NCBI GenBank assembly: GCA_031263125.1
Contig: JAISGL010000077.1
Coordinates: forward strand, 1-39,441
Origin: Opitutaceae bacterium
Lineage (GTDB): Bacteria > Verrucomicrobiota > Verrucomicrobiia > Opitutales > Opitutaceae
Length of the DNA stretch: 39,441 bases
Direction of reading: 5' to 3'
The position numbers and the translations under genes were made by a program. The notes beneath the pieces are model-generated. The model saw only the letters and a list, made by a program, of their open reading frames with translations, did no database searches and was not told the origin of the DNA. Within the stretch, counting starts at the first letter, position 1, and every line of letters begins with the position of its first letter. Below are positions 15,656 to 36,576 of this stretch, piece by piece.

Positions 15656-16016
15656 CTGATATTACACGGCAGCCAGCTTTAGGTAGGGCGGTCTCGCCGA
15701 GACCGCCGAAGCAAGCCGGAGTCTCGCCGAAGCAAGCCGGAGGCTTGCCAGAAATTAGCCGGTGGTTAAGCGAGGCTTTGCGAGCGACACCACCGGATAT
15801 CATCACAAACAATAACCGCATCCCGGAGGGCTGCCAGAAATCCATGTCACACGCCTCTGGCATCCCTCCGGGATGCGGTGCTTTTTATGTTGGGTTCCGG
15901 TGGTGTCGGTCGCGTTGCGACCTCAACCACCGGCTTATATCTGGCAAGCCTCCGGCTTGCTCCGGCGGTCTCGGCGAGACCGCCCTGCCAAAAAAACCTC
16001 TTCCGCATAACATCAG
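15656..16016. repeat. 361-bp nested palindromic element of the same terminal-repeat family with different inner hairpins
   Basis: CTGATATTACACGG at 15656 and CGCATAACATCAG at 16004-16016; GTAG-GGCGGTCTC-GCC-GAGACCGCC at 15683-15707 and its inverse at 15964-15984; internal IR GCATCCCGGAGGGCTGCCAGA (15818-15838) / TCTGGCATCCCTCCGGGATGC (15856-15876). Confidence 0.85.
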
Positions 16017-16030
16017 ATGATAAAACAAAG

Positions 16031-17140: not shown

Positions 17141-17163
17141 TAATCCATTGATAAACACATCCC

Positions 17164-18312
17164 ATGAAACATAAATATCGCAACGCCTTCACCGGCGCGC
17201 TCCTCAGCATCACCACCGCGGCCTCACTCGCCGCGGCGCAACCGGTCATTACCATGACATCATTCGGCACACTGCCCGACGGGCGCTCCGCCCAGCTCTA
17301 CACACTCGCCAACTCCCAGGGCGCGAAAGTGTCCATCACCAACTACGGCGGCATCGTCACGCACATCATTGTGCCCGACCGCGAGGGCCGCATGGCCGAC
17401 GTCGCGCTTGGTTACGATATGGTTGAAAAATACGTTGCCGGCTCGCCCTATTTCGGGGCGCTCATCGGACGTTACGGCAATCGCATCGCCGGCGGAAAAT
17501 TCACCCTCGATGGCAAAACCTACACACTCCCCACCAACGATGTTCCGGGCGGTGTCCCCTGTTCGCTCCACGGCGGCAAGACCGGCTTCGACAAAGTCCT
17601 CTGGGACGCCACCCCGCTCCTCGCCAGTGATGCCGCCGGCCTCAAACTCCGCCACCTCAGCAAGGACGGCGAGGAAGGCTACCCCGGCAATCTCGACGTG
17701 ACTGTCACGTATTGGTTTAACAACAAAAACGAACTGCGCATCGAATACAGCGCGACCACCGACAAAGCCACCCCGGTCAACCTCACCAACCACTCCTATT
17801 TCAACCTCGCCGGCGAAGGCGCCGGCACGATTCTTGATCACATCCTTACGCTCAATGCCTCCAATTACACACCGGTTGACAAGGGCCTGATCCCCACCGG
17901 AAAAGTCACTCCCGTGTCAGGCACCCCGTTCGACTTTACCACGCCGCATGCCATCGGGGAGCGCGTGAATACTGTCGATGAGCAACTCAAGTTTGGCGGC
18001 GGTTACGACCACAACTTTGTGCTCGATCGCACAGGCAAGGGACTCGTCAAGGCCGCCGAGGTTTACGAACCCGTATCGGGCCGCGTGATGGAAATCCTCA
18101 CTGAGGAACCCGCGATTCAATTTTATTGTGGCAACTTTCTCGACGGCACGAATGTCGGCAAAAGCAACTGCCCCTACACGTATCGCACCGGCATCGCCCT
18201 GGAGACGCAGCACTCGCCCGACTCGCCAAACCAACCGGCGTTCCCAAGCACAATCCTCCGCCCCGGCCAGCGCTACGAAACCGCAACCCTATATCGCTTC
18301 TCCGCCCGCTAG
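17164..18312 (+). CDS. galM: Aldose 1-epimerase (mutarotase), with signal peptide
   Basis: ITNYGGIVTHIIVPDREGRMADVALGYD, FGALIGRYGNRIAGGKFTLDGKTYTLPTND, LHGGKTGFDKVLWDA, NLTNHSYFNLAGEG: characteristic GalM sequence blocks. Confidence 0.94.
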   Translation: MKHKYRNAFTGALLSITTAASLAAAQPVITMTSFGTLPDGRSAQLYTLANSQGAKVSITNYGGIVTHIIVPDREGRMADVALGYDMVEKYVAGSPYFGALIGRYGNRIAGGKFTLDGKTYTLPTNDVPGGVPCSLHGGKTGFDKVLWDATPLLASDAAGLKLRHLSKDGEEGYPGNLDVTVTYWFNNKNELRIEYSATTDKATPVNLTNHSYFNLAGEGAGTILDHILTLNASNYTPVDKGLIPTGKVTPVSGTPFDFTTPHAIGERVNTVDEQLKFGGGYDHNFVLDRTGKGLVKAAEVYEPVSGRVMEILTEEPAIQFYCGNFLDGTNVGKSNCPYTYRTGIALETQHSPDSPNQPAFPSTILRPGQRYETATLYRFSAR

Positions 18313-19171: not shown

Positions 19172-20425
19172 TCAAGATGCCGGCTCGCCCGGAATCCAGA
19201 ACGTGGTCTGGCAAGTGAGCGGCTCAGGGGTGCCTTCGACGACAAGCTCAATCGTGCTCGAAATGGGATCGGGCAGCGGCACGGGCAAGTCACGCAAAAA
19301 CAGGCGCTCCCCTTTTTGCTCAAACACCACGGGCGCGCCATCGGCGAGCCAGCGCGCGGCAATCACCTTGTTCTTCAATTCAGCCCAGCAAAGTTCGCGC
19401 CCTGTGCTGTTGCGAATATGCAGATAAACAAGGTTCCCGTTCACCGTCACGCGGCCCCAGTTGTTCCAGGTGAAGGGCGAGCGTCCGCAGCCGTGTATCG
19501 CCGCCCCGTTGCGCCGCATCCACGCGCCCGCCTCGCGCAATATGCGCGCCGACTCCTCCGGAATCGTGCCGTCGGGCCGCGGTCCGACATTGAGCAGCAG
19601 GTTGCCGCCACCGGCGGCGGTTTCGCAGAGCATCTTGACGACCTCGCGCGCGGATTTCCAATTCATGTCCCCCGCATGCCAGCCCCAGTTGTCATTGAGC
19701 GTCATGCATGCCTCCCAGCGAATTCCCCATTCTTTGGGTGGGTTGATGGCCTGCTCGGAAATGCGCACATGCCACGGCGCACCGTTGCGCTCGTTAATCA
19801 ACATGCCCGGCTGGAGGCGCAGCATCTCCGCGTTGATTTCCGGCGACGCGAGATCGGATGGGATGCAGCCATCATACCAAAGATAGTCGATTTTTCCGTA
19901 GCCGGTCATCAGCTCGACCAGTTGTTCGCGATAATAAGCGATCATGCGCGCCCGCGCCTCGTTGGACTGCCAGTCGTTCACGCCCGGCCAGTCACGGAAC
20001 CAAGGCCCCGGATAATCGGGATGACGCCAGTCCGCAGGCGAATAATAAAAACCGACCTTCAATCCCGCCGCGCGCGCCGCCTCGACAAACGGCTTGAGCA
20101 AATCGCGTTTCGGCCCGATGCGTCCCGCATGGAAATCGCCCGTTCGCGTCGGCCACAGCGCAAATCCGTCGTGGTGGCGCGTCGTAATGACCATGTATCC
20201 CATGCCCGCCTCCCTGGCGAGCGCCGCCCACGAGGCGGGATTGTAGTTTTCAGCATGGAAATTTTCCGCGTATAATCGCGAGTATTCATCAGCCGGGATG
20301 CGCTCGCGGTTGCGCGCCCACTCGCCGCGAGCGGCAACCGAGTAGGCGCCCCAGTGGATGAACATCCCGTAACGGGAATGATCAAACCAGGAATAATCCG
20401 GTGCAGGTGATTTCTGTTGTTTCAT
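19172..20425 (-). CDS. Alpha-L-fucosidase (GH29-like)
   Basis: WFDHSRYGMFIHWGAYSVAARGEWARNRERIP, GMGYMVITTRHHDGFALWPTRTGDF, YGKIDYLWYDGC, NLLLNVGPRPDGTIP: typical GH29 blocks. ORF track start 20440; internal Met at 20425 also possible. Confidence 0.93.
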   Translation of the reverse strand: MKQQKSPAPDYSWFDHSRYGMFIHWGAYSVAARGEWARNRERIPADEYSRLYAENFHAENYNPASWAALAREAGMGYMVITTRHHDGFALWPTRTGDFHAGRIGPKRDLLKPFVEAARAAGLKVGFYYSPADWRHPDYPGPWFRDWPGVNDWQSNEARARMIAYYREQLVELMTGYGKIDYLWYDGCIPSDLASPEINAEMLRLQPGMLINERNGAPWHVRISEQAINPPKEWGIRWEACMTLNDNWGWHAGDMNWKSAREVVKMLCETAAGGGNLLLNVGPRPDGTIPEESARILREAGAWMRRNGAAIHGCGRSPFTWNNWGRVTVNGNLVYLHIRNSTGRELCWAELKNKVIAARWLADGAPVVFEQKGERLFLRDLPVPLPDPISSTIELVVEGTPEPLTCQTTFWIPGEPAS

Positions 20426-20451
20426 GATATGAAAAATCAAATATTATTATG

Positions 20452-21342
20452 TCAGCGATCGCGCCGTGCGCAAGGCAGCCAGCCGTTGGCGCGCATCCAG
20501 TCCGCGCAACGCGCGGTCCACGTGGCGGCGTTGCCGGCGCCAGTTTTCATTCCGAAACCGTGCGTGCCGTTTTGATACAAATGCATCTCGGCAGGAACGC
20601 CTTCGCGGCGGAGGGCAAGGTAAAAACGGATGCAGTTTTGCACGGACACTATTTTGTCGTCGCTGCCGGAAACAAGAAAGGCGGGCGGGGTGTCCGGGGT
20701 GATATGCTCGTCGGTTGAATAAAAGGCGATAAGCGCGTCGGACGGTTTTTTGCCAAGAAAGTTTTTGCGCGAGCCAAGGTGGCCGATGTCGTCGCGCATC
20801 GAGATGACGGGATAAACCAGCATGGCAAAATCCGGCCGCGCGCTGGTGGCGTCGGGCGGCGCGCCAGTCCTGCCCGCCTTGGTGTTGAAAAGCGTGGCGG
20901 CGCATGACGCGACATGCCCGCCGGCGGAGAACCCGAGCACGCCGATGCGATCCGCGCGCACGCCGAATTTATCCGCGCTGGCGCGGACGGTGCGGATGGC
21001 ACGGAGCACATCCTGAAGCGGCGCCGGCGGGCCGTATTCCTTCATGCGATACTTGAGCACGAAGGCGGACACGCCGATGGAATTGAGCCATGCGGCGACA
21101 TCGCGCCCCTCGTTTTGCATGGAAAGGCGGACATAACCGCCGCCCGGACATACGACGACGGCGGTGCTACCGGCATTGTTTCCCGAGGGATAAAATGCCA
21201 TGGAGGGGTGATGGACAGCCGACGAATACAAAGGCGCGTCCTTGTCGGGCGCGGCGTCGGCGCGAAGGCCGGGCACACCCTCAGGCCAGAGCGGGATGAC
21301 GGTGGGTTGGGCGGCGGCGAGGGCGGTCGAGAGCAGTGGCAT
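20452..21342 (-). CDS. Alpha/beta-hydrolase, acetyl-esterase/acetylxylan-esterase-like
   Basis: VVVCPGGGYVRLSMQNEGRDVAAWLNSIGVSAFVLKYR oxyanion region; GVLGFSAGGHVAS nucleophile elbow; PAFLVSGSDDKIVS; NGTHGFGMKTG. The N-terminus is short. Confidence 0.88.
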   Translation of the reverse strand: MPLLSTALAAAQPTVIPLWPEGVPGLRADAAPDKDAPLYSSAVHHPSMAFYPSGNNAGSTAVVVCPGGGYVRLSMQNEGRDVAAWLNSIGVSAFVLKYRMKEYGPPAPLQDVLRAIRTVRASADKFGVRADRIGVLGFSAGGHVASCAATLFNTKAGRTGAPPDATSARPDFAMLVYPVISMRDDIGHLGSRKNFLGKKPSDALIAFYSTDEHITPDTPPAFLVSGSDDKIVSVQNCIRFYLALRREGVPAEMHLYQNGTHGFGMKTGAGNAATWTARCADWMRANGWLPCARRDR

Positions 21343-21381
21343 GGCGGTGGCGGACAGAGAAGCCGCGCGGGGAGGCGGAGT

Positions 21382-23961
21382 TCAGAACTTATATCCGATG
21401 GTTGCGTGGTAGTTGTATTGCGTGTCGAAGCCGGCGTCGCGCTGGGCGGTCGCGCCAAACTGGAAAGTCCACCGGTGGTTGAGCGCGGCGGACATGCCGA
21501 GGGTGGCGCGGACGCCGCTGGCGCTCATCTCCGGCACGACCGCATCGACGGAGTAGCCTTCGAGCGACGTCCGCACTGTGCGCGAGTCGGCCCCGGACAG
21601 CAGGCAAATCCATGCCGCGTCGAGAAACAGATGAAACAGGGAATTTTGGTGATTCTGCGCAAACAAGGCTTTTTCCATACGCAGGCCAAGGCGCGATTGT
21701 ATCAAATCCTCCTGTTGTTTTTCAACGGCCAGAGCCACGGTTGACGGCCCTTTTTCCTCAAAACGATTCATGGTCCAGTTCATCCAATGCATGGCGCCAT
21801 ACGGACGGAATGTGAAACTTCCAACATCGTGTCCATAGGCCAGCCATGCGCCAAGCCCGTTGCGGGAGCCGTCAATATCGGCGTAAACATAATCCGCCTG
21901 CCCCGTCTTTTGAACGGAACGTTTTGCATCGTAACTGTCGGAGCCGAACAGGGCCAGCCCGCCCAGGATGAGTTTTTTGTATTTCCAGGCCCCGAAAATG
22001 CCCACGGTGTAGCTGTTTGCCTTGGTTCTGGAGCCGTCATTGCCGTCAATATAATTGCCGTCACCAACGGTCAGCTCGGCGCCAATCATGAAGTTTTCAC
22101 CAACAGACTTGGAGCCGCCAATTGTATAATAAGAGGTGTCCAGTTTTGCGCTTTCGGTGTCGAGGGTCGCCTCCGTTCTCGAGGCGCTGTATTCATAATT
22201 GGAATACAGGCTGAACATGTCCCTGAAGGGCTGCATGAACGCCAGGCCGACGCGGTTCCCGACGCCCTCGGCCAGCGTGTTCATCCCCGCCACGGCGGCT
22301 TGATATATGGGTGTGTATGCCATTGGCGTGAGCTGGTTCATGGCGTCGGCCAGCAGCACCAGCGAAGCCTCGCGGTCAATGGCATCCTCGTAAAATCCAC
22401 GGCTCGCCTTGCCGTTCATCACGCCGATCAGCGGACTGGATGACCCGGGGTCGTCCGAATCAACCAAAGAGACCAGATAATCGAGATAACCAGCCACTTT
22501 CATCTGCCCCGCCGAAAGTCCCTCCACTTCGGAAAACGGAAGCTGCACCATTCTTACGCTCATGGTCTTTCTGTCCGCGGACAGGGTGACTGGATTCCCG
22601 GAATCGGCGGGCGCCAAGGTCAGCGACTCGGGAATCAATACTTTGCTTTTTGCAAACGTGCCGGAGATGACCGCATCCGAGGTCAGGAATTTATAATCGC
22701 CGGCGACGATGGAACCGTCCGCCACCCAGAGGCGCAGAATCGGCTCGATTCCCGACGTCCCGCTCCCGCCAATGACCGCCGATCCGCTCACGTGGATATG
22801 GTCATAGGCGCCGTTTTTTCCTATATCTATCCACATGGTGGTGGTGCCGGTGTCCCGCATCTCGAAATTGCCGTCCACAGTCAGCGTGCCGACATCGGGG
22901 CTGTTCCTGCCGGCGCCGCCGGTCACGGTGCCCAGTTCCACGATCAACGACCCCGTCCGCCCATGCCCGGCAAGGATGGCATTGGCGCCGGCGACACGCG
23001 TGTCACCAATGTTACTGTCCATCACCATGACGCCATTGGCCACTTGAGACATGATAATGTTGCGGGTGGCGTTCCTGGCATCGGATACCGTGCCCGTGAC
23101 AAGAAATCCGTTGTCATCCAGAAGATTGTTATTTCGCAAGTCCGTTTCGTACTCACCATAACCGAAATAATTCTGGCCGGATATAATCAATGTTCCAGGG
23201 TCGGACTTGATCAATATTCCGCCATCGGCAGCCTCCATGCTACCGGCAATTTCGGCGACGCTGACCGCCCGCGCACTATAATTGTCACCGATTCGCAAGG
23301 GGTTTCGCCCCAGCTTGATGGTGGTCCCGGCAGCAGCTTGCAACATGCTCACGGCAGCCTGCGCCCGCCGGGGCGCGGACGTGCCCGAGCCGTCGGAATC
23401 CACCCATATGCGCTCTGAAATGTCGAAAACCGCATTGTCAGTCAGCCGCACATGAACGACATCGCCATTATAGCGACTGAAATCATTTCCGCCCAGCGTG
23501 CCGGAGCTGATCATGCTAAATTTCAACACACCGTTTTCACCGATGTTAAAGATGACCTGCGGCAGATCGTCTATATTAATGCCGGAAGTGGGGACGCCGC
23601 CGCTATGCAAATACCACATGGCCGTGGGACCGGTGAAATCCATGGTAGCCGTTCCGGTATCGACGCCCCGGATGTTCACGATGGCGCCATTGGCCCTGTC
23701 ATTCAGGTCGAAGTGGTGCGCCTGAAATGTCCCGGTCATGTCTGTGAGGTCGAAAGTGATTGGATGCAGCCCCGGCTTGATATTGATGTAAGTATTTGCG
23801 TCGGGCACGGCTCCGGTGAACCAGTTGGCGGGGTCGTCCCAGCGGTTGTTCCCGCCCGCTCCAGTCCAAATGTTTTCCGTGACATATGTTATCTGCCCGG
23901 ACAAGGGCGGGATGTTTGCAAGACAGAACAAGGCAAAAAACAGGGGAATGTAAGTTTTCAT
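21382..23961 (-). CDS. Autotransporter (about 860 aa) with C-terminal beta-barrel
   Basis: Signal peptide MKTYIPLFFALFCLANIPPLSG; IWTGAGGNNRWDDPANWFTGAVPD passenger start; C-terminal barrel-like region ending in ...YNYHATIGYKF. ORF track start 23985. Confidence 0.82.
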   Translation of the reverse strand: MKTYIPLFFALFCLANIPPLSGQITYVTENIWTGAGGNNRWDDPANWFTGAVPDANTYINIKPGLHPITFDLTDMTGTFQAHHFDLNDRANGAIVNIRGVDTGTATMDFTGPTAMWYLHSGGVPTSGINIDDLPQVIFNIGENGVLKFSMISSGTLGGNDFSRYNGDVVHVRLTDNAVFDISERIWVDSDGSGTSAPRRAQAAVSMLQAAAGTTIKLGRNPLRIGDNYSARAVSVAEIAGSMEAADGGILIKSDPGTLIISGQNYFGYGEYETDLRNNNLLDDNGFLVTGTVSDARNATRNIIMSQVANGVMVMDSNIGDTRVAGANAILAGHGRTGSLIVELGTVTGGAGRNSPDVGTLTVDGNFEMRDTGTTTMWIDIGKNGAYDHIHVSGSAVIGGSGTSGIEPILRLWVADGSIVAGDYKFLTSDAVISGTFAKSKVLIPESLTLAPADSGNPVTLSADRKTMSVRMVQLPFSEVEGLSAGQMKVAGYLDYLVSLVDSDDPGSSSPLIGVMNGKASRGFYEDAIDREASLVLLADAMNQLTPMAYTPIYQAAVAGMNTLAEGVGNRVGLAFMQPFRDMFSLYSNYEYSASRTEATLDTESAKLDTSYYTIGGSKSVGENFMIGAELTVGDGNYIDGNDGSRTKANSYTVGIFGAWKYKKLILGGLALFGSDSYDAKRSVQKTGQADYVYADIDGSRNGLGAWLAYGHDVGSFTFRPYGAMHWMNWTMNRFEEKGPSTVALAVEKQQEDLIQSRLGLRMEKALFAQNHQNSLFHLFLDAAWICLLSGADSRTVRTSLEGYSVDAVVPEMSASGVRATLGMSAALNHRWTFQFGATAQRDAGFDTQYNYHATIGYKF

Positions 23962-23981
23962 AATATGCTTTTTATTAAATA

Positions 23982-26666
23982 TCAAAAACGGATGGAAAGC
24001 CCCGCGTAACCGCTGACGTTGTCCACGCCATGCAGGCCGTCCTCCTTGCCCGCGCTCAGGTAGAGGGTGAGCCTGCCGGGCAGGTCGATCTCGAAGGCGG
24101 CCCGCAGCACGTAACCGTTGCCATCATTGGTCAAATCCAGCGCATAGTCGCGTCCGTTCAATCTGGCATGGACGGTTCGCTCCGCGTCCCCCATTTCAAA
24201 CTGCCAGCCGGCGTTGAGCACTGTGCGACAGGACAATTTCCACATGTCAAACGGATATATAAACCGAATGCCCGCCTTCCCGACCAGCGAGACCTCGCGC
24301 TGGTCACCCACGCTCATGGGCAGGCTGGCGCCGGTCTCGGCGTATCCATCGGCAGCCCACTTCACATACAGCAAACCGGCATAAGGGCGCAGGGCGCCGC
24401 CGATGACATCCTCGAAACCGTAGCTGACATTCAACGCGCCGCCAAGCCGCGTGCCAGAGCTTGTTGAGCGCACCCAGTCGCCCGCGCCGGCGAGCGCGAC
24501 GCTGCGTGTCGATTGATAGTCATCGGCGCCGTAAAACGCCATCGCCTTGAGTTCCCATTTCCCTCCGCGCCAATCCATATGAACGCCAAAGGTGTCACCT
24601 TTGATTTTGCCCTCACTGCCGAGCGGATCGAGGTCGGAACTGGTTTCGTCCCTCGTATAAAAGACGGTGGCCGATAGGTTGCTTGTGGCATAAAAATCCA
24701 CGCCGCCGAGAAAACGAATCATGCCGCCGGCCCAGCTCTCCGCGCCATCGGTTGCGGACATGTCCATATCGAGCGCGGATACCCCGGCAAAAATGGCGAA
24801 ACGATGCCGCGCGTCATCAGGCGGCCAGACCACCCGCTCCTCCAGCCGTTGGGCCAGGTCGCCCGCGCCGATCACCGCGTTGGTAAACCAATAGCGGTCC
24901 GCCAGCGGCGTCAACTGGGCGATTGCGCGGTTCAACTGGCCCAGCCCGGTGGCGGCGTTGAGCGTGCCGACGACGCCGTCCGCCCCGGCATTGCCAATCA
25001 ATGCGTCCAACACCGGAGCCATTCTTTTGGAAACCTCCGACAGCCCCTGGATGCCGGTGAAAGGAAGCTGTGTCATAACCACGTCGACATGCCGGCTGGA
25101 AACCCGCACATCGCAGTCAAGCGACAGCAGACCGGGCTTTGACACATCAAAAAATTCCCCCACGACGCCACCATCCGCCTCAATGATACGATAGGTTCCG
25201 GAAAGCAACACCGAGCCGGGCGTGGGTGACAGTTGCAAATGCCCGTCGAGCGCGACCACGCCGCCCGCCTTTATCACATCATGGCTTTCCAGACTCTTTA
25301 TATCCACGAGGGTCCATGCTTCCGTCGATGCCATGATAAAATTGGTTCCGATACGCAGCTCGCCAACCGCGCCGCCCGTGGCACCGGCGGAGACATAGCC
25401 ACGGGTGTTGACCAGGCTTCCGGAAACAGTCCAGTAACCCTGCGGCCTGCCCGTTGAGTCGCCGCCAAACGATGTCACCCGGTTTCCCGCCATGCCAACC
25501 GAGCCAGCCACCTTTCCATATATATAAAGCGCGCCCTCCTGGACAATGGTGTTGCCAATATAGGTGTTTTCCCCGCCGAGATAGAGAGTGCCCAGCCCGT
25601 ATTTTTGCAATGTTTGCGTGCCCGTCACCGTGCCCGTGACCCCGGCGATTATGTCAGAATCAATCCGCATGTCATAGCGCGTGCCCTGGCCGTTTGTAAA
25701 GGCGCCCACAATTATGTTGGGCGACCCTCCGGGCAGCAGGATTTGAGAGCCTTTGACACCGTCCACTTTATAAAAGTAGCAGTGCGTCGTGTCCACCAAC
25801 TCGCTCATGTCGAACACGGCGGAGGAATCGGTCAGGTTTATCATCGAGTTCACATTGCCCCAATTCTGCCGGTATCCCTGCTCCCACTGGTCTATTCTGT
25901 CCCTGCCCACCACGCTGTTGGCGCCAGATGTGGGGCAACTGTATTTCAAAGTCGCGTTTTTCCCGATATTTATAAGCAACGGCGGCATTCCGGTCGGGCC
26001 GCGGGGATTGGAAGATCCGGTGAACTCCGGGGCCACGGACGAGGTGCCGTCGTTGTCGGTGTTCCAGCGCACGATCCCCATGCCATTTATGTCGAGCGTG
26101 TAGCGACCGCTGTCGTTGCCGCTCAAATCCAGTGCGTAGCCATCAATATACTGGATGTGGTCTATGTTTTGATAAAAATCACCGGAACCGGACCAGGCGA
26201 GCTGGAGGTGGACGCGCTCGTATTTATTTCCGCCATACCATTCCACCTTGGTGGGGTCCAGCGTGTCGGGAATGGCATAGCCGCCCGATTGGGTCTTGTA
26301 GGGCAGAACCAGCACCGTGCCGGGGATGAAATCAGGCGAACCTGGAGGCGGCGGGCCGGCCAGCGTGCCCGAGACATAATAACCCGTGCCCGAATATCCG
26401 GTGCCGTAAGTCCTCGCGCCCTCCGGGTCGTTGGGCACCGTGCCCGTGCTCCATGCCGCGGCATCGAGCAGGTTGGTGGTGGAGCCGGTCCAGCGCGCCT
26501 CGATAAAGAGCCGTGTCGTGCCATCGCTGTAATACGGTTTGTTGGGATCGCGGAGATTGCCGCCATACGAGTTGGGCGCCGGTATCTGCGCGTGCAGCGA
26601 CGCCGCCAGAACCATGCACCCTGCGAGGACGGCGCGGGCGCAAAAAATCTTGAAAGGGTTTGTCAT
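23982..26666 (-). CDS. Autotransporter (about 890 aa), paralogue of the downstream autotransporter
   Basis: MTNPFKIFCARAVLAGCMVLAASLHAQ signal peptide; RWTGSTTNLLDAAAWSTGTVPND; LQKYGLGTLYLGGENTYIGNTIVQEGALYIYG (PATR-like); C-terminal barrel ending YAGLSIRF. ORF track start 26732. Confidence 0.82.
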   Translation of the reverse strand: MTNPFKIFCARAVLAGCMVLAASLHAQIPAPNSYGGNLRDPNKPYYSDGTTRLFIEARWTGSTTNLLDAAAWSTGTVPNDPEGARTYGTGYSGTGYYVSGTLAGPPPPGSPDFIPGTVLVLPYKTQSGGYAIPDTLDPTKVEWYGGNKYERVHLQLAWSGSGDFYQNIDHIQYIDGYALDLSGNDSGRYTLDINGMGIVRWNTDNDGTSSVAPEFTGSSNPRGPTGMPPLLINIGKNATLKYSCPTSGANSVVGRDRIDQWEQGYRQNWGNVNSMINLTDSSAVFDMSELVDTTHCYFYKVDGVKGSQILLPGGSPNIIVGAFTNGQGTRYDMRIDSDIIAGVTGTVTGTQTLQKYGLGTLYLGGENTYIGNTIVQEGALYIYGKVAGSVGMAGNRVTSFGGDSTGRPQGYWTVSGSLVNTRGYVSAGATGGAVGELRIGTNFIMASTEAWTLVDIKSLESHDVIKAGGVVALDGHLQLSPTPGSVLLSGTYRIIEADGGVVGEFFDVSKPGLLSLDCDVRVSSRHVDVVMTQLPFTGIQGLSEVSKRMAPVLDALIGNAGADGVVGTLNAATGLGQLNRAIAQLTPLADRYWFTNAVIGAGDLAQRLEERVVWPPDDARHRFAIFAGVSALDMDMSATDGAESWAGGMIRFLGGVDFYATSNLSATVFYTRDETSSDLDPLGSEGKIKGDTFGVHMDWRGGKWELKAMAFYGADDYQSTRSVALAGAGDWVRSTSSGTRLGGALNVSYGFEDVIGGALRPYAGLLYVKWAADGYAETGASLPMSVGDQREVSLVGKAGIRFIYPFDMWKLSCRTVLNAGWQFEMGDAERTVHARLNGRDYALDLTNDGNGYVLRAAFEIDLPGRLTLYLSAGKEDGLHGVDNVSGYAGLSIRF

Positions 26667-26748
26667 GCGCAGGCGGGTTTGAAACCCTGTGTCGCGGAAT
26701 GTGTTTTGACCGTGTGTTTTCATAAATGCCATGCCTTCTGTCTTATGG

Positions 26749-29700
26749 TTAAAACCTGCCCCTCAGCCCGATTGCTATGTTGGAAAGCCCTCTGTGGTAT
26801 TCGCGCATCACATTGGAATAATTCCAACGCCGCACCGCGGCCTCGCTCGTGAGATTGCGCCAGTCAAAATACAGTGTCCACACCCGGGAGAACGCGCAGG
26901 ATGCCCCAATGTCAAACTGGAGCGTCTCGTCCCATTTGTAGAAGGAATAGGGTATTGTGGTCGGCCTGTTTGTATTCTGCCCCCAATAATACATCTCGTT
27001 TATATAGTTGCCGCGCCAGTTGCATTTCACCTGCCATGAGAAGCGGCGTCCGGAATAGGCGATCATGGCGTTGGCCGTGTCGCGGGGCGAGCCGTAGTTC
27101 TTTGTCTCCAGCCATGTGCCCGGCGAATTTAACTGGGTGCGCTTGCTCTCGTTGTAGGTGTAATTGCAGACCAGGCGCAGGTTTTTAAACAGCCAGGGCA
27201 GATAATGCAAACGCTGTGAGAATGAAAACTCGAACCCCTGGATTTTCACATGGGTCGCGTTTATATTTTGATACACGGTGTAATTTTCATACATGCCGTC
27301 GAACCCGTTGTCCATGCCGGCGCCGACCACGTATTGAATGTTTTCGATGCGGTTTTTCTGGTCCTTGTAAAACCCGGCCAGGGAAATTACGCCATTTTTT
27401 ATATAATATTCGATGCTCAGATCACAGTTGCGCCCGGCCTGTGGAATGAGGTCGGGATTGGATATTCGTATGCTCCGCCCCTGATGGTCAACCGCCGAGG
27501 CCGCGATCATGTTTTCCACGGACGGACGCCCGATGTCGTTGGTGATGCTTCCGCGCAGGATGAAGTTTTTCAAAGGCTCGTATTTCAAATGCAGGCTGGG
27601 CAGCCAGTTGTCATAGGATTTCGAGACGGACCGCGGCTGCCAGCGCCCGAAGGCGCGTTCGGCCGCGTCGGGTTCATAGGAGGGATCACTGCTGGAACCC
27701 TGCTCGGCCATCCTTATATAACCGTGGCTCTCGCCGTCCGTCCGTTCCCAGCGGGCGCCGGCGAGGACGGTCAGGCTGGCCAGCTTCCATGTGCCCATGA
27801 AGTAGGCGGCGGTGACCTCCTCCTTGAAGGACCTGCTGTTTTGCATCACCGCCTGCGCGTTGTTGGCGTGCTGGCCCCAGAACATGTCCGGATTGGATTG
27901 GAAAACATCCCACACCGCGTCCGGGCTTGCCCAGGCGATTTCCGGCAGACGGTCGCCGTAAAAAAATTCAGACGAGGTTCGGTTGCGGTCCAGATAGCTG
28001 CCCAGGCGCGGGTCGTCCGGCGTGCCCAGCAATTTGTCGGCGCCGGTCATGTCATATCTGTAATCCGGGCGCTCGTATGCGCTTTCGCGCACATTATGGG
28101 CCGCGCCTGACTGGAGCTGGAGCGGGAAGCGGAAGAGCAGGCTCTTTTTGGCGTCGATTTTTCCGCCATAGCGCTTGTCGTCCACGGATTGCGGCTGATA
28201 GCCCAAGGTGAGGGAATTCCAGCTGTCGAGGTCCGCCGGATCGGCGCCGGAAATGATTTTCAGGTTCGCGCCGTCGCCCCCGCTTGCAAGGATATTATCA
28301 ACCACGAATTTCACGCGCGAGGCGGCATTCTCGGAGTTGTCGGCCAGATAATAATCCACCCGCTTTGCATCACGATCACTGGTCGATTTGCTATAATAGA
28401 TATCATAGTTAAGCGAAAGGCCGCTCCAATTGTGTTTCACGCCCGGGTTTATCCTGAAATTTTTCTGCTCAAATCGAAACAAGCCGACAGACGCGTTTAT
28501 ATTCACGCCCTGCGCCTCCGACGCCTCCATCCTGTCCATGTTGGTGCCGGGGAGGATGGCGCCCGCATTTGCGATCAACCGGCGGTAGCCTCCGTCGGAT
28601 TGCTTTTGCCTGTCCCAGCCAAACACGAGATAGGCGCTGGTATAGGGCGACACCTTGTAATCCATCGTGAGCGCCGCCCGCACTGAATCATAAATGGCGT
28701 CCTCATCCTGCCATCGGTAGCTTGTGGCGGGCACGGGGACATCGGAAAGGTCCGGCTGCCCCCAAGGCAGTTCGCTTTGCACGGCCGCATACCCCGCATA
28801 CAGACGGGGGCCATACCGGGCGCTTCGATTCGCTCCAAGCGTGAGCGAGATGCCGACCGGATGGGGTGTATTCTGAAAAAATGCCTCGGAATAGCTGAAT
28901 GTCGCCCCCGGATAGAACTCACGCGTGCGCTCGGGATTGCTGTGCAGGCGGCTGCCGAAACCCCAGTAGCCCTCGATAAAATTCAACTGCGTGTCGAGCG
29001 TGAGCCGCCTGCCTTTTTGCTGAAACGCGCTCCTGGTGGTGAAATTGACCAGCCCGCCCAGCGTGTTTCCGGGATGCGCGGGCGTGGATGCCTTGAAAAT
29101 TTCCAGGCTCTCAATATTATCCACATTAAAACCCTTCAGGGCGAATGAGCGGGAGGCCGCGCCGATGGACGAGGCGCTGCTGGCCTCGTTGCCGTTCAAT
29201 GTCACCAGCGCGGACTGGTCGCCCATCGCGCCGCGGATTTTGATGCCGGTCAGCTCGCCGGGCGCGCCCTCGCCCTCAACCGCCGCGCTGGAGTCGAACA
29301 CCATGACACCCGGCAGTTGCTTGAGCAACTCGCCGACGTTGCCATCCTGGATGTTCCCAAAGCTGTCGGCGGCGAGGACGTAGCGGCTGTCCACGGCCAT
29401 TTTTTGCTCCTGAATCGCCTGCGCCTGGCCTTCGCGATCGGAGGAAACGACGAAGGTTTCGAGGTGATACACATCGGAGGTCATCTCGATGTCGCGCGTC
29501 ACGGTTTTGCCCGGTTCGACCTGCACGGGAACACGCATTATATCAAGACCCGTATATTCAAATATAAGCGAATATGAACCCGGCTGGAGATTACGAACCG
29601 CATAATTGCCATCCTGGTCGGTGACTGTCCGGATTGGCGTGTCCACCACGGTGACGGAGACGTTGATGAGGTATTTTTTCGTGGCCTTGTTGGTAATCCG

Positions 29701-29838
29701 GCCCGTGATGGCGCCGGGGTCCTGCCGCGCCGGTTCCTGCGCGACGGCAAAGGCGGAAATCACTGTGAGTGCCGCGAGGAAACAGAGCAGCCGCGCGCAA
29801 GAATTGAACACAGGGAATATTTTTTGGGCGAAGTTCAT
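26749..29838 (-). CDS. TonB-dependent receptor with N-terminal carboxypeptidase-regulatory-like domain
   Basis: MNFAQKIFPVFNSCARLLCFLAALTVISAFAVAQ signal peptide; GAITGRITNKATKKYLINVSVTVVDTPIRTVTDQDGNYAVRNLQPGSYSLIFEYTGLD; plug domain GNVGELLKQLPGVMV...GIKIRGAMGDQSALVTLNG. ORF track start 29979. Confidence 0.92.
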   Translation of the reverse strand: MNFAQKIFPVFNSCARLLCFLAALTVISAFAVAQEPARQDPGAITGRITNKATKKYLINVSVTVVDTPIRTVTDQDGNYAVRNLQPGSYSLIFEYTGLDIMRVPVQVEPGKTVTRDIEMTSDVYHLETFVVSSDREGQAQAIQEQKMAVDSRYVLAADSFGNIQDGNVGELLKQLPGVMVFDSSAAVEGEGAPGELTGIKIRGAMGDQSALVTLNGNEASSASSIGAASRSFALKGFNVDNIESLEIFKASTPAHPGNTLGGLVNFTTRSAFQQKGRRLTLDTQLNFIEGYWGFGSRLHSNPERTREFYPGATFSYSEAFFQNTPHPVGISLTLGANRSARYGPRLYAGYAAVQSELPWGQPDLSDVPVPATSYRWQDEDAIYDSVRAALTMDYKVSPYTSAYLVFGWDRQKQSDGGYRRLIANAGAILPGTNMDRMEASEAQGVNINASVGLFRFEQKNFRINPGVKHNWSGLSLNYDIYYSKSTSDRDAKRVDYYLADNSENAASRVKFVVDNILASGGDGANLKIISGADPADLDSWNSLTLGYQPQSVDDKRYGGKIDAKKSLLFRFPLQLQSGAAHNVRESAYERPDYRYDMTGADKLLGTPDDPRLGSYLDRNRTSSEFFYGDRLPEIAWASPDAVWDVFQSNPDMFWGQHANNAQAVMQNSRSFKEEVTAAYFMGTWKLASLTVLAGARWERTDGESHGYIRMAEQGSSSDPSYEPDAAERAFGRWQPRSVSKSYDNWLPSLHLKYEPLKNFILRGSITNDIGRPSVENMIAASAVDHQGRSIRISNPDLIPQAGRNCDLSIEYYIKNGVISLAGFYKDQKNRIENIQYVVGAGMDNGFDGMYENYTVYQNINATHVKIQGFEFSFSQRLHYLPWLFKNLRLVCNYTYNESKRTQLNSPGTWLETKNYGSPRDTANAMIAYSGRRFSWQVKCNWRGNYINEMYYWGQNTNRPTTIPYSFYKWDETLQFDIGASCAFSRVWTLYFDWRNLTSEAAVRRWNYSNVMREYHRGLSNIAIGLRGRF

Positions 29839-29896
29839 GACAGGGTCGGAGTTTTTATACATAAAAAGATTGGTTCCGGTCGAATCGGGGAGTGCG

Positions 29897-32800
29897 TCAC
29901 CAGTGCCAGGCGACACCGAGGTTGATGCCGTGGCTTTCCATTTTGCCGCCAAAGTGGGAACTGGCGTCGGCCCAGGCATCGAAGCGGTCGCGGATGCGCA
30001 GTGTCACGCCGACGGAAAGGATGCCGGAACCGCCGCCAAAGTTGTCATCGAAATCGTAACGGTTGCGCAGGTATCTTCTGGTTTCGTCGGTATATTGCAT
30101 GACAATCACGTTATTCCTGCCCTCGAGTTCCCGCACGAAGCTGGCGCGAACATAAGGGCTGACACGGACGCCGTTTTTCAGGGCAATTTGTTTTGAAATC
30201 TGGCCGCCCACACGCGCGCGGAAGGACGCGATTGTATTCACCTTGAAGAGGCGGAAGCCCGGATCGAGGGTTTCGTCCACGCTGGTGCGGTGCCATGTCA
30301 ATTGCACCTGCGGCTCAACGTTCCAGCCGGAGCGGGTCTTGATTTCATAGCCATACATGGCGGACACGCCAAAGCCATTTGCGTCCATGTCGAAATCCGC
30401 CACGCCGGGCAGCGATACCGTGTGCGTGCTGGTATGGGCGCGCAGGAGCACATCGACATACCAAGCCGGGGCGGGGCGCATGGTGAGATAAGCGCCGCAG
30501 CCCGTGACGCCGGTGCGGGTTCTGCCGCCGGGCATGTCCATGTCGGTGTTCATATAATCGGCAAAAAGGCCGGCGGCGTAGCGTTTGCTTTCGCCTGTGT
30601 AATCGAATCCGGCCTGCACACCCTGCGTGTTGGTCCTGGCGCCATCATAAAGCGGCTCGCTGATTTCGTCACGCCGGTAAATGCCGTTGAGCCAGACATC
30701 GAAGCCCTGGCGCGCCGCGTTTCCGCTTGCGAGGCGCATCGAGCCGAGACGCTGGCCGAGTGCGTCGAACGCGGCCTGCGTGCTGACGAGCACGGCGGCG
30801 TCGATGCCGACCACGCCGGGGATGAGTGGCGAAAGCGGGCTGCGTGTCAGGACATAGTCGTTTTCGATTTTTTCAACCGCCCAGCCGTAAACATCGGTGA
30901 TGTGCCCGCCGTCAATGACGATGTCGAAATCAGACGTGTTGCCGAGACCGCTTATGAGTATCGCCTGCCCGGAGCCGGCCGTCACGGTCGGGGCGACGTC
31001 GATGAGCCGGAGATTGAGCGTGCCCCCGCCGGTGATATCGCCGGCGACGGCGAGCAGGTCGGAGCGATTCACGAGGCCGAGACGCGAGTTCACATCCGCC
31101 GTGAGGAGAATGGAGCCGTTGTTGTCGAGGCCGGCCACCGATTGCCGGGTGCCGCGCATGTCGAGGATCGCGCCGGTGGAAATCGAATGCGCGGAGTTTG
31201 CGCCGAGGATATTGTCCGAGCCGACCTTGAGCGTGCCGGCGACGATACGCGTCGCGCCAGTGAGCGCGCTGACCGCGGTCATCGTGAGAATGCCCGCACC
31301 GCGTTTCTCAAACGCGCCCGCGCCCGAGATGATGCCGGTGTATTGGCCGTCGGTCTCCTGGGCAAAAACAACGGCGCCAGCGGCGGCGGTTGCGATGTCG
31401 TTGCGCAGGCTGCGCGTGTTTCCCTGGAGCGTGCCTTCGGCGACGGCGAACGTGAGCGCGGCGTCATTGCTTCCGGTAAGGACAAGCGTGCCGGCGCCGG
31501 TTTTTGAGAAGACGCGCGAGGAGCCGGTGATGACGCCGCCCCACGTGACGGTGGCGCTGGCGACGACGCCAATGCCGCCATCGGCCCGGAGTTCGATCTC
31601 GCGGGTGCTGGAATAGCCGTCGGTGGTGATTTCGAGATTGGCGCCAGCGCCTTCAAAACGGATTTCGCGATTGAGCGAGGCGAGGCCGAGCTGGCTGTCG
31701 GACGAAACGCGGAGCGTGCCACTCCGGAGCACGGTGGCGCCGGCGTAGCCGTTGGAGCCGGTCATGGTCGCGAAGCCCGCGACTCCGGCATCCACGACAA
31801 CAAAAAGCCCGGCGCCGGAGCCGGCAGCGCCGATGCCGCCGAGGGCATCACCGGCGCGCAGCGTGATTTTGTCGTTGCCGCCGATGACGCCGCCGAGGGA
31901 GCCGGTGATGGTCAGCCCGGTCCAATCGTTGGCGCCGGCGCTGTCATCGGGATCGAATCCGGTGGCGTCGGAAAGGTCGAGCCAGCCACCGTTGATGATG
32001 AAAGCATGGTTAAGCGCGGGAATGTCGGCTGCGGCGAAGTCGCGCAACGCCACGTAGCCGGCGTCGATGCGCGTGGTGGCGGCGGCGGCGAGAAGCCCCG
32101 TGCCGGAAGTCGCTCCGGAATAGGCAAGCCCGCCGCCGCCGAGTTTCACCAAGGTGCCGGAGCCGGTGAGCGCGCCGCCGAAAGTGACGGTGTTCGCGCC
32201 GGTGTCGAGCGCGCCGGCTGCGCCGGGCGCGAGGTTGATTGTGTGCGCAATCTCCATCGCGGCGTTTGCGCGAAGCGTGCCCGAGCCGGTGAGGTTGACC
32301 GCGGCGCCGGACGTGTTGATTTGCGCGGTGTTGCTGAAGGCGAGCACGCCCCCGGAAAGGTCGATTCCGCCGGTGAAATTATTGGCAACGTTGTCGAGCA
32401 CGAGCGCACCCGCGCCGGCCTTGACGAGCTTGGATTCGGGGTTGCCGATGAACGTGCCGGTTATGAGGCTCGCGTCCATCGTGATGGCTTCGCCGGTGAA
32501 GGCGAGCGTGCCGGTGTTGTCGACGACGAGATCGGAAACATAGGCGGTCGAGTCAATCGCGACGGTGGTGTTTCCCGACGTGGCGAAGCGGACTGTGTCG
32601 CCATCCTGGAAGTTTTGCTCGCCACTGATGTCACCGTTGTAGCCCACCCAGTTGGACAACGCGGGATTCCAGTTAAAAGTCCCCGATGCGCCGGTCCACT
32701 GCATGTAGCGCGAATCGTCCATGCCGTAATACAGGAACAGAGTGCCGCCCGTGGCGGCGAGGTCGTAGCGGGCGCGCAGCGCGGTGTTCACGGCGACATC

Positions 32801-35800
32801 GTTGATCAGGATATTTTTTATCCCGGCAAGACCGGCGGCCTGCCCGAGAAAATAGGTGCCGGAAGCAAGCGAACCGTAGTGCAGGCTAACGATATTGGTG
32901 TTGGTGTCAGCCGAGATAACGCCGCCGACGTTGAGCGTGTCGTTCGAGCCGGGGCCGAAAATACGGAAGTTCACACGCGCGCCGCCGGTGAGCGTGAGAT
33001 TGCCGCCGATGAAGAGCACGCCCGCGCCGCCGCTCTCGCCGGCATCGCCCGTGCCCGCGCGAAGCACGCCGCCGTCGCCGACGGTGACATTGCCGGCAAA
33101 TGAGCCGTTGCCTCCGGCGAGCGCGCCATTGGCGATGGTGATCGCGCCGCCGAGTTTCGCGGAATCCGCCAGAAGGAGTTTGCCGGCGCTGACATTGAAC
33201 GCGCCCGCGTAGCCGCTGTTGTCCGTGGCACGGAGAATGAGCGAACCCGGACCGGTTTTCGCGAGGGCCGAGACCGTGTTTCCGCTGGTGATCGCGCCGG
33301 TGTATTCGAGCGTGTGACCCTGTGTGTCGATGACGCCGGCGGCGCTCACAGCGACCGCGATGGCGCTGGCGAGCGTGCCGGATGCGCCGAGGATATCCGC
33401 GTCGACGCGAAGCGTGCCGGAGCCGGTGAAAGTGATGGCAGTGCCGGTGGTGACGAGTTGCGAGGCGTTGTTGAACGAGACAATGCCGGCATCGATGTCG
33501 AGACCACCGGTGAAGTCGTTGCCGGCATTGGCGAACGTGAGCGTGCCCGCGCCAGCCTTGACGAGTTTGCCTTGCGAGGCGATGGAGCCGGAAGCGTCGA
33601 TGGACGTATCAACAAAAACATAACCGGTCGCGCCCGCGATATCGGACGAGCTTGCCCTGGTCGCAATCATGCCGCCCGTGAATGTATGCACACTGGCGGC
33701 GTCGGCGACGTTCACCGTGATGTCGCTGGTAACAACGCCCGCCGCCGCGACGTTGACCGTGCCGGAGGCCGCTGGATTAAATACCACAAAGTCACCCGCG
33801 CGGAAAATGATTTCCGCGGGCAGTGCGCTGGCTGGCTCGGACCAGTTGGCGACCTGTGTGTCCCAGAGCAATGGTGCGCCGGCGTCGCCGCCTGCCCACC
33901 GCATCATGAGGCTGCGGACGGCGGGTGTGAGGACGATGTCGTTGCCGGAGACAGCGAGCGAGGGTGAGGCGCGATTGGTGAGGGCGCGTCCGCCGAGCGT
34001 GAAGGAGAAGTTGCCAAGATTGGCGCCTGTGAGATCGCCCGCGGTGATGATGGTGTATTGGAGCGCCGTGCCGAAGTTGGACAGGTCGATGACGCTGGCG
34101 GAGTTTGAGGCAAACGCGTCGGTCACGGAGAACGCATCGTGGGTGCCCGCCGCGCCGTTGCTGCCGCGCAAGTCGAACAGCAGGCTGCCGCCGCCAAGTG
34201 TCAGGTCACCGGCGATCGTGCCCGACGAGACGGCCAGCGTCCGACCAGTGGCGCGGGTGAGATTGCCGGCAAGCACGGACTGATTGGCGATGACGACGGC
34301 GAGGCTGGAGTTGATGTCACCCGCGAGCGTGCCGCCAAGGACCGAAGTCGTGCCGGTGTGCGAAACTGCGCCGGAAAGCGTGAGCGCGCCCGCGCCGGTC
34401 TTGGCAAAGCCGCCTGCGCCGGAGATGTCGCCGGAGAGCGTGGCGGTGTAATTCCCGGTGTCCATGACCGTCTGCGCATAAGGCGTATTAAAACTGACTG
34501 CGTTGCCGACATTCAACGCATCCGCGGAAAAGCCCACGCGCGTCGTGCCTGTTGGCTGAATATAAAATGTGCCGCTGCCGAGAGCGGTATTTGCTCCGAT
34601 GACAAGTGAGCCTTCCTGCAAAATCACGCCTCCAAAAGTATTGGCGCCGGCAAGCTCCAGCGTGCCGGCACCCTGTTTCCAAAGACTGCCCAAGCCACCG
34701 ATGGCGCCGGCAATCGTCACAGTCCTGGCGTCGGCAATGCCTGCATAAACCGCACCGATAATTGTGGCATTGCCTCCCGTCACATCGAGAATGCCATCGC
34801 CGGTGACAGTGCTGGTGCCCACAAGATAAAGTGAACCCGTGAAAGCGAGTGTCTGCGACTGGCCGCTGGTGTTGTCCAAGCCGATTTGCAAGACGCTGCC
34901 TGCATCCATCCTGACATTTTTGTTGACCCCGGTTTTGACGGCGACGGCGCCCTGACCGCCGAATGTCGCGTCGGCGTCGACGTTGATCAAACCGCCCAGC
35001 ATGGCGTCGCTGTTGCCGAGCAGCAGCTTGCCGCCGAGCACGTTCACGGTGCCGGTGTAAGTGGAGTTGTCGGCGTTGAGGATAATTGTGCCCTGCTCCC
35101 CGCCGGCATTGACTTCAACCCGAACCGTGGCGATGCCGCTGGAGATGTTGTCCTTCGAGACATCCGAGGCGCTGCCAACGGTCATCGTCGCGCCGGCGTT
35201 CGCGCTCAAGCCCAGATAACCACCGGCCGTGAGCATGTGGGCGAAGCCGCCGGTGCCGCTGCCGGTGGCGTTGCCGGAGTGCGTGATGTCGCGCGTGGCG
35301 AGCAGGCGCACGGTGCCGGTCTCCCTGAGATGCATGGCGCCGCCGAGCAAGACCGCGTAGTTGTCGGTGAACGTGACATCGGTCAGGTCCATCACGGCGG
35401 GGCTGTTGTTATTCCCTGCCCAGATGGCGCCACCGGAAGTGCCGGCAGAATTGCTTATAAAAAGCGTATTATTGATGCTGGCTCTGACAGTCGCCTCGAT
35501 CCATATCGCCCCGCCTTGGGCTTGCGCGTAGTTTTCGCTGAACGTGCCGCTGTTTATTATGGAGAGGGTGCCGCCGCGCATGTAGATGCCGCCACCCTGC
35601 CCGTTGGCTCCCTGGATGGTTTTGTTTTTATCAAATACGACATTGTTAAAACTGATGACGGCGTCGGCGTAGTTGCAAATCGCGCCGCCGGTATTGCCGG
35701 TGCTCATGGTGGCGTTGTTGCGAAACACCACCGTGCCGTCGCCGGTGAACGAGAGCGTGACGACGCTGGCGCCGCTGTTCTTCGTGCGTATCACGCCGCC

Positions 35801-36052
35801 GCGATAACTATTACCGTCGGCGTCCGAGGAAAACATGTTTTCAAAGGTATAAGTCATGCCGTCCTCGATCTCGCGCAGGTATTGCGCGCCGGGGTTTATG
35901 CTCAAGCGCGTGCCCGTGGTGACCGACTCGGATATGGTTGCCGAATCCACGACGTTGGCGGCGATGATCTGCGTGGGCGACCTCACCTGCCCGCACAGCG
36001 GGCCGGCAATGCCAAGGGTGAATGCGAATGCGGACAGAAGTTTTGCGTTCAT
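29897..36052 (-). CDS. Giant autotransporter (about 2050 aa): Pmp-like GGAI/FxxN N-terminal part, PATR repeats, beta-barrel
   Basis: Signal peptide MNAKLLSAFAFTLGIAGPLCGQ at internal Met 36052; GGAI/FxxN repeats; multiple GTLxLxGxNTFGGxxLxxG passenger motifs; C-terminal barrel ending GINLGVAWHW. ORF track start 36532. Confidence 0.87.
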   Translation of the reverse strand: MNAKLLSAFAFTLGIAGPLCGQVRSPTQIIAANVVDSATISESVTTGTRLSINPGAQYLREIEDGMTYTFENMFSSDADGNSYRGGVIRTKNSGASVVTLSFTGDGTVVFRNNATMSTGNTGGAICNYADAVISFNNVVFDKNKTIQGANGQGGGIYMRGGTLSIINSGTFSENYAQAQGGAIWIEATVRASINNTLFISNSAGTSGGAIWAGNNNSPAVMDLTDVTFTDNYAVLLGGAMHLRETGTVRLLATRDITHSGNATGSGTGGFAHMLTAGGYLGLSANAGATMTVGSASDVSKDNISSGIATVRVEVNAGGEQGTIILNADNSTYTGTVNVLGGKLLLGNSDAMLGGLINVDADATFGGQGAVAVKTGVNKNVRMDAGSVLQIGLDNTSGQSQTLAFTGSLYLVGTSTVTGDGILDVTGGNATIIGAVYAGIADARTVTIAGAIGGLGSLWKQGAGTLELAGANTFGGVILQEGSLVIGANTALGSGTFYIQPTGTTRVGFSADALNVGNAVSFNTPYAQTVMDTGNYTATLSGDISGAGGFAKTGAGALTLSGAVSHTGTTSVLGGTLAGDINSSLAVVIANQSVLAGNLTRATGRTLAVSSGTIAGDLTLGGGSLLFDLRGSNGAAGTHDAFSVTDAFASNSASVIDLSNFGTALQYTIITAGDLTGANLGNFSFTLGGRALTNRASPSLAVSGNDIVLTPAVRSLMMRWAGGDAGAPLLWDTQVANWSEPASALPAEIIFRAGDFVVFNPAASGTVNVAAAGVVTSDITVNVADAASVHTFTGGMIATRASSSDIAGATGYVFVDTSIDASGSIASQGKLVKAGAGTLTFANAGNDFTGGLDIDAGIVSFNNASQLVTTGTAITFTGSGTLRVDADILGASGTLASAIAVAVSAAGVIDTQGHTLEYTGAITSGNTVSALAKTGPGSLILRATDNSGYAGAFNVSAGKLLLADSAKLGGAITIANGALAGGNGSFAGNVTVGDGGVLRAGTGDAGESGGAGVLFIGGNLTLTGGARVNFRIFGPGSNDTLNVGGVISADTNTNIVSLHYGSLASGTYFLGQAAGLAGIKNILINDVAVNTALRARYDLAATGGTLFLYYGMDDSRYMQWTGASGTFNWNPALSNWVGYNGDISGEQNFQDGDTVRFATSGNTTVAIDSTAYVSDLVVDNTGTLAFTGEAITMDASLITGTFIGNPESKLVKAGAGALVLDNVANNFTGGIDLSGGVLAFSNTAQINTSGAAVNLTGSGTLRANAAMEIAHTINLAPGAAGALDTGANTVTFGGALTGSGTLVKLGGGGLAYSGATSGTGLLAAAATTRIDAGYVALRDFAAADIPALNHAFIINGGWLDLSDATGFDPDDSAGANDWTGLTITGSLGGVIGGNDKITLRAGDALGGIGAAGSGAGLFVVVDAGVAGFATMTGSNGYAGATVLRSGTLRVSSDSQLGLASLNREIRFEGAGANLEITTDGYSSTREIELRADGGIGVVASATVTWGGVITGSSRVFSKTGAGTLVLTGSNDAALTFAVAEGTLQGNTRSLRNDIATAAAGAVVFAQETDGQYTGIISGAGAFEKRGAGILTMTAVSALTGATRIVAGTLKVGSDNILGANSAHSISTGAILDMRGTRQSVAGLDNNGSILLTADVNSRLGLVNRSDLLAVAGDITGGGTLNLRLIDVAPTVTAGSGQAILISGLGNTSDFDIVIDGGHITDVYGWAVEKIENDYVLTRSPLSPLIPGVVGIDAAVLVSTQAAFDALGQRLGSMRLASGNAARQGFDVWLNGIYRRDEISEPLYDGARTNTQGVQAGFDYTGESKRYAAGLFADYMNTDMDMPGGRTRTGVTGCGAYLTMRPAPAWYVDVLLRAHTSTHTVSLPGVADFDMDANGFGVSAMYGYEIKTRSGWNVEPQVQLTWHRTSVDETLDPGFRLFKVNTIASFRARVGGQISKQIALKNGVRVSPYVRASFVRELEGRNNVIVMQYTDETRRYLRNRYDFDDNFGGGSGILSVGVTLRIRDRFDAWADASSHFGGKMESHGINLGVAWHW

Positions 36053-36576
36053 AAAAGCGGTTTGGGACGAAATCGGTTCAGGGAATGATGGTTTGGAAAA
36101 GGAGATGTCCACGACGCGCCCATTCCGTCCGGGGAACGGACGGCTGACAAACACTGGCGCCATGAGGAAGAGGGGCAAATCATCGGGGAGATGGAAATGT
36201 GGAAAATGTAGTGACGTGTGAACGAAGCACCATTTCTCATACATCGGAAAGCCACACACTTTGAACACACATACCGCCGGGCCGCTCACCGCCGCCGCGC
36301 CGGGCCGCCAATGGAACACAAAGCATACTGGAATCCGCTGCTTGCCCTCCCGCCCATTCCCGCCGGCAATGGCGCGGTCCTTTGCCCTCGCCAAAACAGA
36401 ATGATGCCAAAACACGCCCATCCCGCACTGCATGCGATTATGCCGATTATCAATGAAATCATCGCGCCCGGGCGTTTCCCCGAAAATACGGGCATCCAAA
36501 ACGCAATCGCGCCATTGCCCCGGACAAGCCAATAAATGTGCCCGCCGCCCGCCCTGATTTTAATCATTCATCCGAC

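Follow-up and report, generated by a model that had tools for sequence, protein, structure and literature searches.

Autotransporters beside a TonB-dependent receptor in a candidate glycan-uptake locus of Ereboglobus (Opitutaceae)

Could autotransporters (ATs) serve as the surface partners of a TonB-dependent receptor (TBDT) in glycan uptake? This question is raised by contig C205 of a 65.8%-complete Ereboglobus MAG (Opitutaceae, Verrucomicrobiota; a gut-associated lineage), a stretch of 39,441 nucleotides that we analyzed whole and refer to as the window. An earlier note on this DNA had described six closely spaced minus-strand genes without a SusD, and had proposed that ATs occupy the SusD slot in an alternative glycan-capture architecture.

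The six-gene block and its surroundings

To assign protein families, we used Pfam and NCBIfam models, and for comparison we used the complete genome G001, which belongs to the same genus. All six genes were found with the coordinates and starts proposed earlier, separated by gaps of 58, 82, 20, 39, and 26 bp as claimed, and the family models upheld the identities of the three ATs, the TBDT, the esterase, and the fucosidase. A seventh gene, encoding a GH36 enzyme, had been missing from the earlier gene list. The block and this neighbor are as follows:

36538–38793, plus strand: GH36 alpha-galactosidase, divergent from AT1 (PF02065 512 bits; 78% ortholog in G001)
29897–36052, minus strand: AT1, long autotransporter of 2051 aa with a PATR beta-helix passenger, Chlamydia-Pmp-like repeats, and an AT barrel (TIGR01414 117 bits, TIGR02601 x8, Chlam_PMP 27 bits, PF03797 126 bits)
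26749–29838, minus strand: TBDT of 1029 aa with a CarboxypepD_reg N-terminal domain, TIGR01782 class (PF00593 114 bits, PF07715 42 bits, TIGR01782 315 bits)
23982–26666, minus strand: AT2, short autotransporter directly 3′ of the TBDT, in a TBDT-linked family (PF03797 104 bits; family adjacency and co-divergence)
21382–23961, minus strand: AT3, tandem paralog of AT2 (PF03797 103 bits; alignment)
20452–21342, minus strand: esterase, alpha/beta hydrolase, PaeX/BD-FAE-like (Pfam and NCBIfam; without a counterpart in the G001 block)
19172–20425, minus strand: GH29 alpha-L-fucosidase (PF01120 258 bits; 82% ortholog in G001)

All three ATs end in a PF03797/TIGR01414 barrel, as type Va autotransporters do, and have hydrophobic N-termini with plausible Sec cleavage sites (judged by eye); the fucosidase N-terminus shows no obvious signal peptide. 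AT2 and AT3 align as full-length paralogs with 25% identity. The TIGR01782 score of the TBDT lies barely above the cut-off of 310. The six genes may be co-transcribed; promoter and terminator scans found sites no more numerous than in shuffles and were uninformative. N-terminal GGAI/FxxN repeats of the Chlamydia polymorphic membrane protein type occur in AT1 (32000–36052), where the PF02415 match scores 27 bits, and in a second long AT of the window, ATp (481–3000), which may link chlamydial Pmps with the autotransporters of Verrucomicrobiota. The contig ends in an IS4-type transposase remnant or start (DUF4372, PF14294; 39130–39441).

Gene order is conserved within the genus. With GH36 on the same side and divergent, the order AT1-TBDT-AT2-AT3-GH29 is kept in G001 at 74–82% protein identity (AT1 74%, TBDT 82%, GH29 82%, GH36 78%). 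The esterase is absent from the G001 block, so it is not a core part. dN/dS between the window and G001 was 0.11–0.22 for every gene compared, and the block genes are therefore under purifying selection.

We also found a second AT-TBDT block, omitted from the earlier note, on the plus strand (481–18312), comprising an AT, two TBDTs, a sulfatase, an unknown protein, and GalM:

481–7218, plus strand: ATp, long autotransporter upstream of two TBDTs (PF03797 117 bits)
7289–10489, plus strand: TBDT TB1, as ORF (PF07715 32 bits)
10529–13846, plus strand: TBDT TB2 (PF07715 42 bits)
13912–15348, plus strand: sulfatase (PF00884 111 bits)
17164–18312, plus strand: aldose 1-epimerase, GalM (PF01263 299 bits)

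The palindromic repeat GTAGGGCCTGACCTTGTGTCAGGCCGC is clustered at 7331–7473 and 15385–15624; because the first cluster falls within the 5′ region of the TB1 ORF, the true start of TB1 is probably downstream of the ORF start.

Coupling of autotransporters and TonB-dependent receptors

To determine if ATs lie near TBDTs more often than expected, we took TBDT positions from Pfam plug matches, as a home-made TBDT HMM missed many receptors. ATs adjoin TBDTs much more often than chance would predict, both in three genomes of the genus and in a second genus. G001 (43 ATs, 28 TBDTs) has four TBDTs with a same-strand AT directly upstream within 1.5 kb (0.21 expected) and 12 TBDTs with an AT within 8 kb (4.05 expected), and neither value was reached in any of 5000 circular shifts. 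In the two other genomes, where expectations are analytic approximations on broken assemblies, we counted eight TBDTs with an upstream same-strand AT within 1.5 kb (0.26 expected) and an AT within 8 kb of 14/48 TBDTs (5.4 expected) in G000, and an AT within 8 kb of 5/14 TBDTs (1.4 expected) in G003. G333, from an independent genus (85 ATs, 122 TBDTs), has 16 TBDTs with an upstream same-strand AT within 1.5 kb (0.99 expected; reached in 1/5000 shifts) and 38 TBDTs with an AT within 8 kb (19.6 expected), the nearest AT being on the same strand in 36 of these 38 pairs. Of the 85 AT barrels in this one Opitutaceae genome, some lie in open frames as long as 10,954 and 16,953 codons. Other family members have 45–73 TBDTs and 0–1 AT per genome, so the coupling is a feature of some lineages and not of the whole family.

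The coupling takes two forms. In one, a long AT precedes a TBDT, as with ATp-like genes (49–54% identity to each other) in the window and on three more contigs of its genome (C294, C391, and C430), and with many other long ATs; in the other, a TBDT is followed by a short AT2-like AT. The six-gene block combines both. AT1, long and upstream, belongs to a different coupling pattern than AT2 and AT3, and the placement of ATs in the SusD slot, as first suggested, holds for AT2, directly 3′ of the TBDT, and for its tandem paralog AT3, not for AT1.

These distributions also bear on SusD. No SusD-family match was found in the window ORFs scanned, as the earlier note had expected, and SusD (PF07980) was found in 0/57 genomes of the order searched. 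The TBDT itself is not of the SusC/RagA type (TIGR04056 50 bits against a cut-off of 368, over the N-terminal part only). SusD is missing even from members with 45–73 TBDTs and 0–1 AT, so its absence is no sign of replacement by ATs, and we rejected such a replacement as a family-wide rule. The proposed architecture is partly supported, by conserved synteny, non-random AT-TBDT coupling, a dedicated AT gene right after the TBDT, co-divergence, and carbohydrate-active enzyme (CAZyme) context.

A profile search across 250 family genomes recovered full-length AT2-like genes in three genera. In all 16 loci with the upstream side on the contig, a TBDT lies directly 5′ of the AT2-like gene on the same strand; these include one TBDT broken by frame shifts, one locus with a short intervening ORF that is probably an out-of-frame AT start, and one AT located by profile search rather than ORF calling. 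None of 10 distant, partly matching AT genes of other genera directly adjoins a TBDT detectable with TBDT models of limited sensitivity, and one of them has a TBDT three genes away. In G006, the sole AT of the genome adjoins a TBDT that was the closest homolog recovered from beyond the genus; the pair lies next to an ABC ATPase gene, with no neighboring CAZymes. A search of genome contigs with the window TBDT as sole query gave no matches, and an alignment-based contig scan gave five close loci and two weak Bacteroidetes matches.

AT2-like proteins and their TBDTs diverge together. Pairwise identity matrices of 14 pairs correlated at r = 0.977 (0/20,000 label shuffles), as did those of the nine pairs left after near-orthologs were removed (r = 0.977, 0/20,000), and the passenger alone tracked the TBDT at r = 0.934 (0/20,000). 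This co-divergence shows a long-term partnership in sequence, not a mechanism, as block inheritance without contact can produce it too. One could accordingly suppose that ATs and TBDTs co-occur only through the block duplication of CAZyme-rich outer-membrane clusters, with no functional link, which would produce both adjacency and correlated trees and is compatible with the pattern observed. We regard this as highly improbable, since linkage, order, and strand are kept at 23–31% identity across three genera and the lone AT of G006 adjoins a TBDT with no CAZymes nearby.

Glycan context, passenger fold, and fused ORFs

The window block encodes GH29, GH36, and an esterase. The neighbors of AT-TBDT loci include GH2, GH28, GH42, GH88, GH92, GH106, GH127, PL11, and PcRGLX rhamnogalacturonan lyases, together with sulfatases and acetylesterases, and most such loci are flanked by CAZymes and sulfatases. 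Given these neighbors, the substrates overall are likely to be pectin-type glycans; in the case of the window block, the GH29, GH36, and PaeX-like esterase point to a fucosylated, galactosylated, and possibly acetylated plant glycan. One sister locus carries ECF sigma/FecR genes and another a LacI gene. The former, an ECF sigma factor and a FecR anti-sigma gene directly upstream of an AT-linked TBDT (L123, 16582–18427, minus strand), suggest surface signaling.

When full-length AT2 was modeled with AlphaFold from 10 sequences, the passenger came out poorly (mean pLDDT 68), and fold searches with this model returned mainly barrels, matching those of EstA, NalP, and EspP. For this reason, we modeled the passenger of the G006 homolog instead, which is predicted to be a beta-helix (pLDDT 86.7, pTM 0.84); a beta-helical passenger is thus indicated by this model and by the PATR repeats. 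Its top PDB match was 7JVI, a CBM89 (E value 2e-7, TM 0.46, rmsd 10 Å, a weak match), and lower-ranked matches included Ssp, pertactin, Hap, and Ag43. Because beta-helices readily resemble one another in fold searches, we treat the CBM89 match as a hint only. The 7JVI domain is a xylan-binding beta-helix (PMC8810776).

The same fold matches raise the possibility that the ATs are adhesins or fibers co-regulated with glycan uptake, which would anchor the cell to fiber or mucus without handing substrate to the TBDT. The long PATR passengers of AT1 and ATp, the matches to Ag43, pertactin, and Hap, and the distant family ATs that occur without TBDTs are in keeping with this, and attachment is advantageous to insect-gut bacteria. 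We consider it rather unlikely: the short AT2-like family invariably adjoins a TBDT and keeps pace with its divergence, neither of which would be required of free adhesins.

Further support for a coupling of surface proteins with TBDTs comes from eight AT2-like loci of two genera, in which the TBDT forms the C-terminal part of one long ORF of 2,823 to 3,364 aa. Each of these encodes a surface-type protein plus a TBDT and is followed by an AT2-like AT (two of the eight are truncated or uncertain at the 5′ side):

L072, 1675–11430, plus strand: fused ORF
L118, 8711–18031, minus strand: fused ORF
L137, 3227–13321, plus strand: fused ORF
L121, 8782–18003, minus strand: fused ORF
L144, 8246–17395, minus strand: fused ORF
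L147, 8064–17633, minus strand: fused ORF
L139, 3773–12985, plus strand: fused ORF
L138, 2–8473, plus strand: fused ORF

Domain scans covered three of the eight, and the others were recognized by receptor profile, length, and, where inspected, the junction. The N-terminal part carries, in order, PATR and He_PIG Ig-like repeats, NHL repeats, and an I-set Ig domain; its PATR part matches the AT1 and ATp repeats weakly (best 6e-9). The junction resembles a sorting-signal tail (a Gly-rich stretch with W-Y-L, a hydrophobic span, and an Arg cluster) and is followed by a second, signal-peptide-like hydrophobic span and then by CarboxypepD_reg, plug, and barrel. Two of five junctions tested passed the GlyGly-CTERM cut-off (one of the five being from the long TBDT L135); the other three passed no curated sorting-signal model. 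The simplest reading is that surface protein and TBDT would be made as one chain and split by processing. The fused surface part occupies the position 5′ of the TBDT that AT1 has in the window, and this in-frame fusion lends independent support to surface protein-TBDT coupling. At G333:1582640 the same fused-type organization occurs, with the frame broken at the junction. Another class of very long TBDT ORFs is represented by L135 (1–8355, plus strand), in which the receptor part lacks CarboxypepD_reg, and by three plug matches known only from the length of their open frames, 3675–3858 aa (G000:C488:8345, G333:3395971, and G333:6586974).

These fusions also invite comparison with Oar, a Myxococcus TBDT that exports the protease PopC and has the same N-terminal CarboxypepD_reg domain, though no autotransporter partner (PMC6434023). 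The window TBDT might likewise be an exporter that secretes a surface protein or sets it in place, the fused PATR/Ig/NHL protein being an example, with the AT as part of that surface layer; the shared domain and the existence of fused ORFs would fit. Of the readings weighed here this is the least likely, given that the window TBDT has no fused cargo, AT2 and AT3 have export barrels of their own, and the block lies in a glycan-enzyme context.

Proposed function and relation to known systems

On balance, we think that the block is probably a glycan-uptake locus whose TBDT works with dedicated self-exported surface proteins, and the AT2-like proteins are best read as surface proteins dedicated to glycan TBDTs. 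In the proposed mechanism, AT2 and AT3, its tandem copy, would be exported through their own C-terminal barrels and would present a compact beta-helix to capture oligosaccharide beside the TBDT, while AT1 would form a longer fiber reaching or adhering to the substrate. By contact with these partners, the TBDT would take over the captured glycan and import it at the expense of TonB energy; its breakdown would fall to the fucosidase, the esterase, and the alpha-galactosidase. Several observations weigh against this explanation: operon co-inheritance alone also yields correlated trees, the CBM89 match is weak, the G006 pair adjoins an ABC ATPase gene and not CAZymes, and most family TBDTs function without any AT.

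The proposed locus resembles SusC/SusD loci of Bacteroidetes in that a dedicated, co-diverging gene lies directly 3′ of the TBDT and is followed by carbohydrate enzymes. It differs in that SusD is a helical lipoprotein whereas AT2 appears to be a beta-helix autotransporter with its own outer-membrane barrel, and in that the window TBDT falls below the SusC/RagA cut-off in an order where all 57 genomes searched lack SusD. The CUT loci of Xanthomonas and Caulobacter are SusD-less TBDT carbohydrate loci of Proteobacteria (Blanvillain 2007; PMC1790865) and share a TIGR01782-class TBDT with plant-carbohydrate enzymes; however, autotransporter partners are not part of their description, and an inner-membrane sugar transporter or regulator, a CUT feature, was not found among the window ORFs scanned. 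Another functional parallel may be Haemophilus heme uptake, in which HxuA, a surface type V beta-helix protein, feeds the adjacently encoded TBDT HxuC (PMC4873976). Both systems encode a surface-exposed type V beta-helix protein beside a TBDT, with feeding known for HxuA and presumed here; HxuC/HxuB/HxuA uses two-partner secretion and heme-hemopexin, whereas the window has type Va ATs and a presumed glycan, and the resemblance is put forward as an analogy.

No account of ATs coupled to glycan TBDTs turned up in the open-licence literature searched. New here is the apparently dedicated, co-diverging partnership of a type Va autotransporter with a glycan-type TBDT. We suggest only tentatively that AT2-like ATs, though not homologous to SusD, could fill its role as dedicated partners that are bound to TBDTs and capture glycans; with the fused ORFs, they would then define a distinct type of glycan-uptake locus among gut Opitutaceae.

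If true, unrelated surface proteins would have been enlisted for TBDT glycan uptake on more than one occasion, in this case a type V protein in contrast to the SusD lipoprotein. The AT2-like family would give a testable partner to many TBDTs of unknown substrate and, together with the TBDT, a marker for finding such loci, and the fused ORFs would be a rare natural case of a surface protein and an outer-membrane receptor made as one chain. For the biology of the group, it would go part of the way toward explaining how complex plant glycans may be captured by Verrucomicrobiota that lack SusD.
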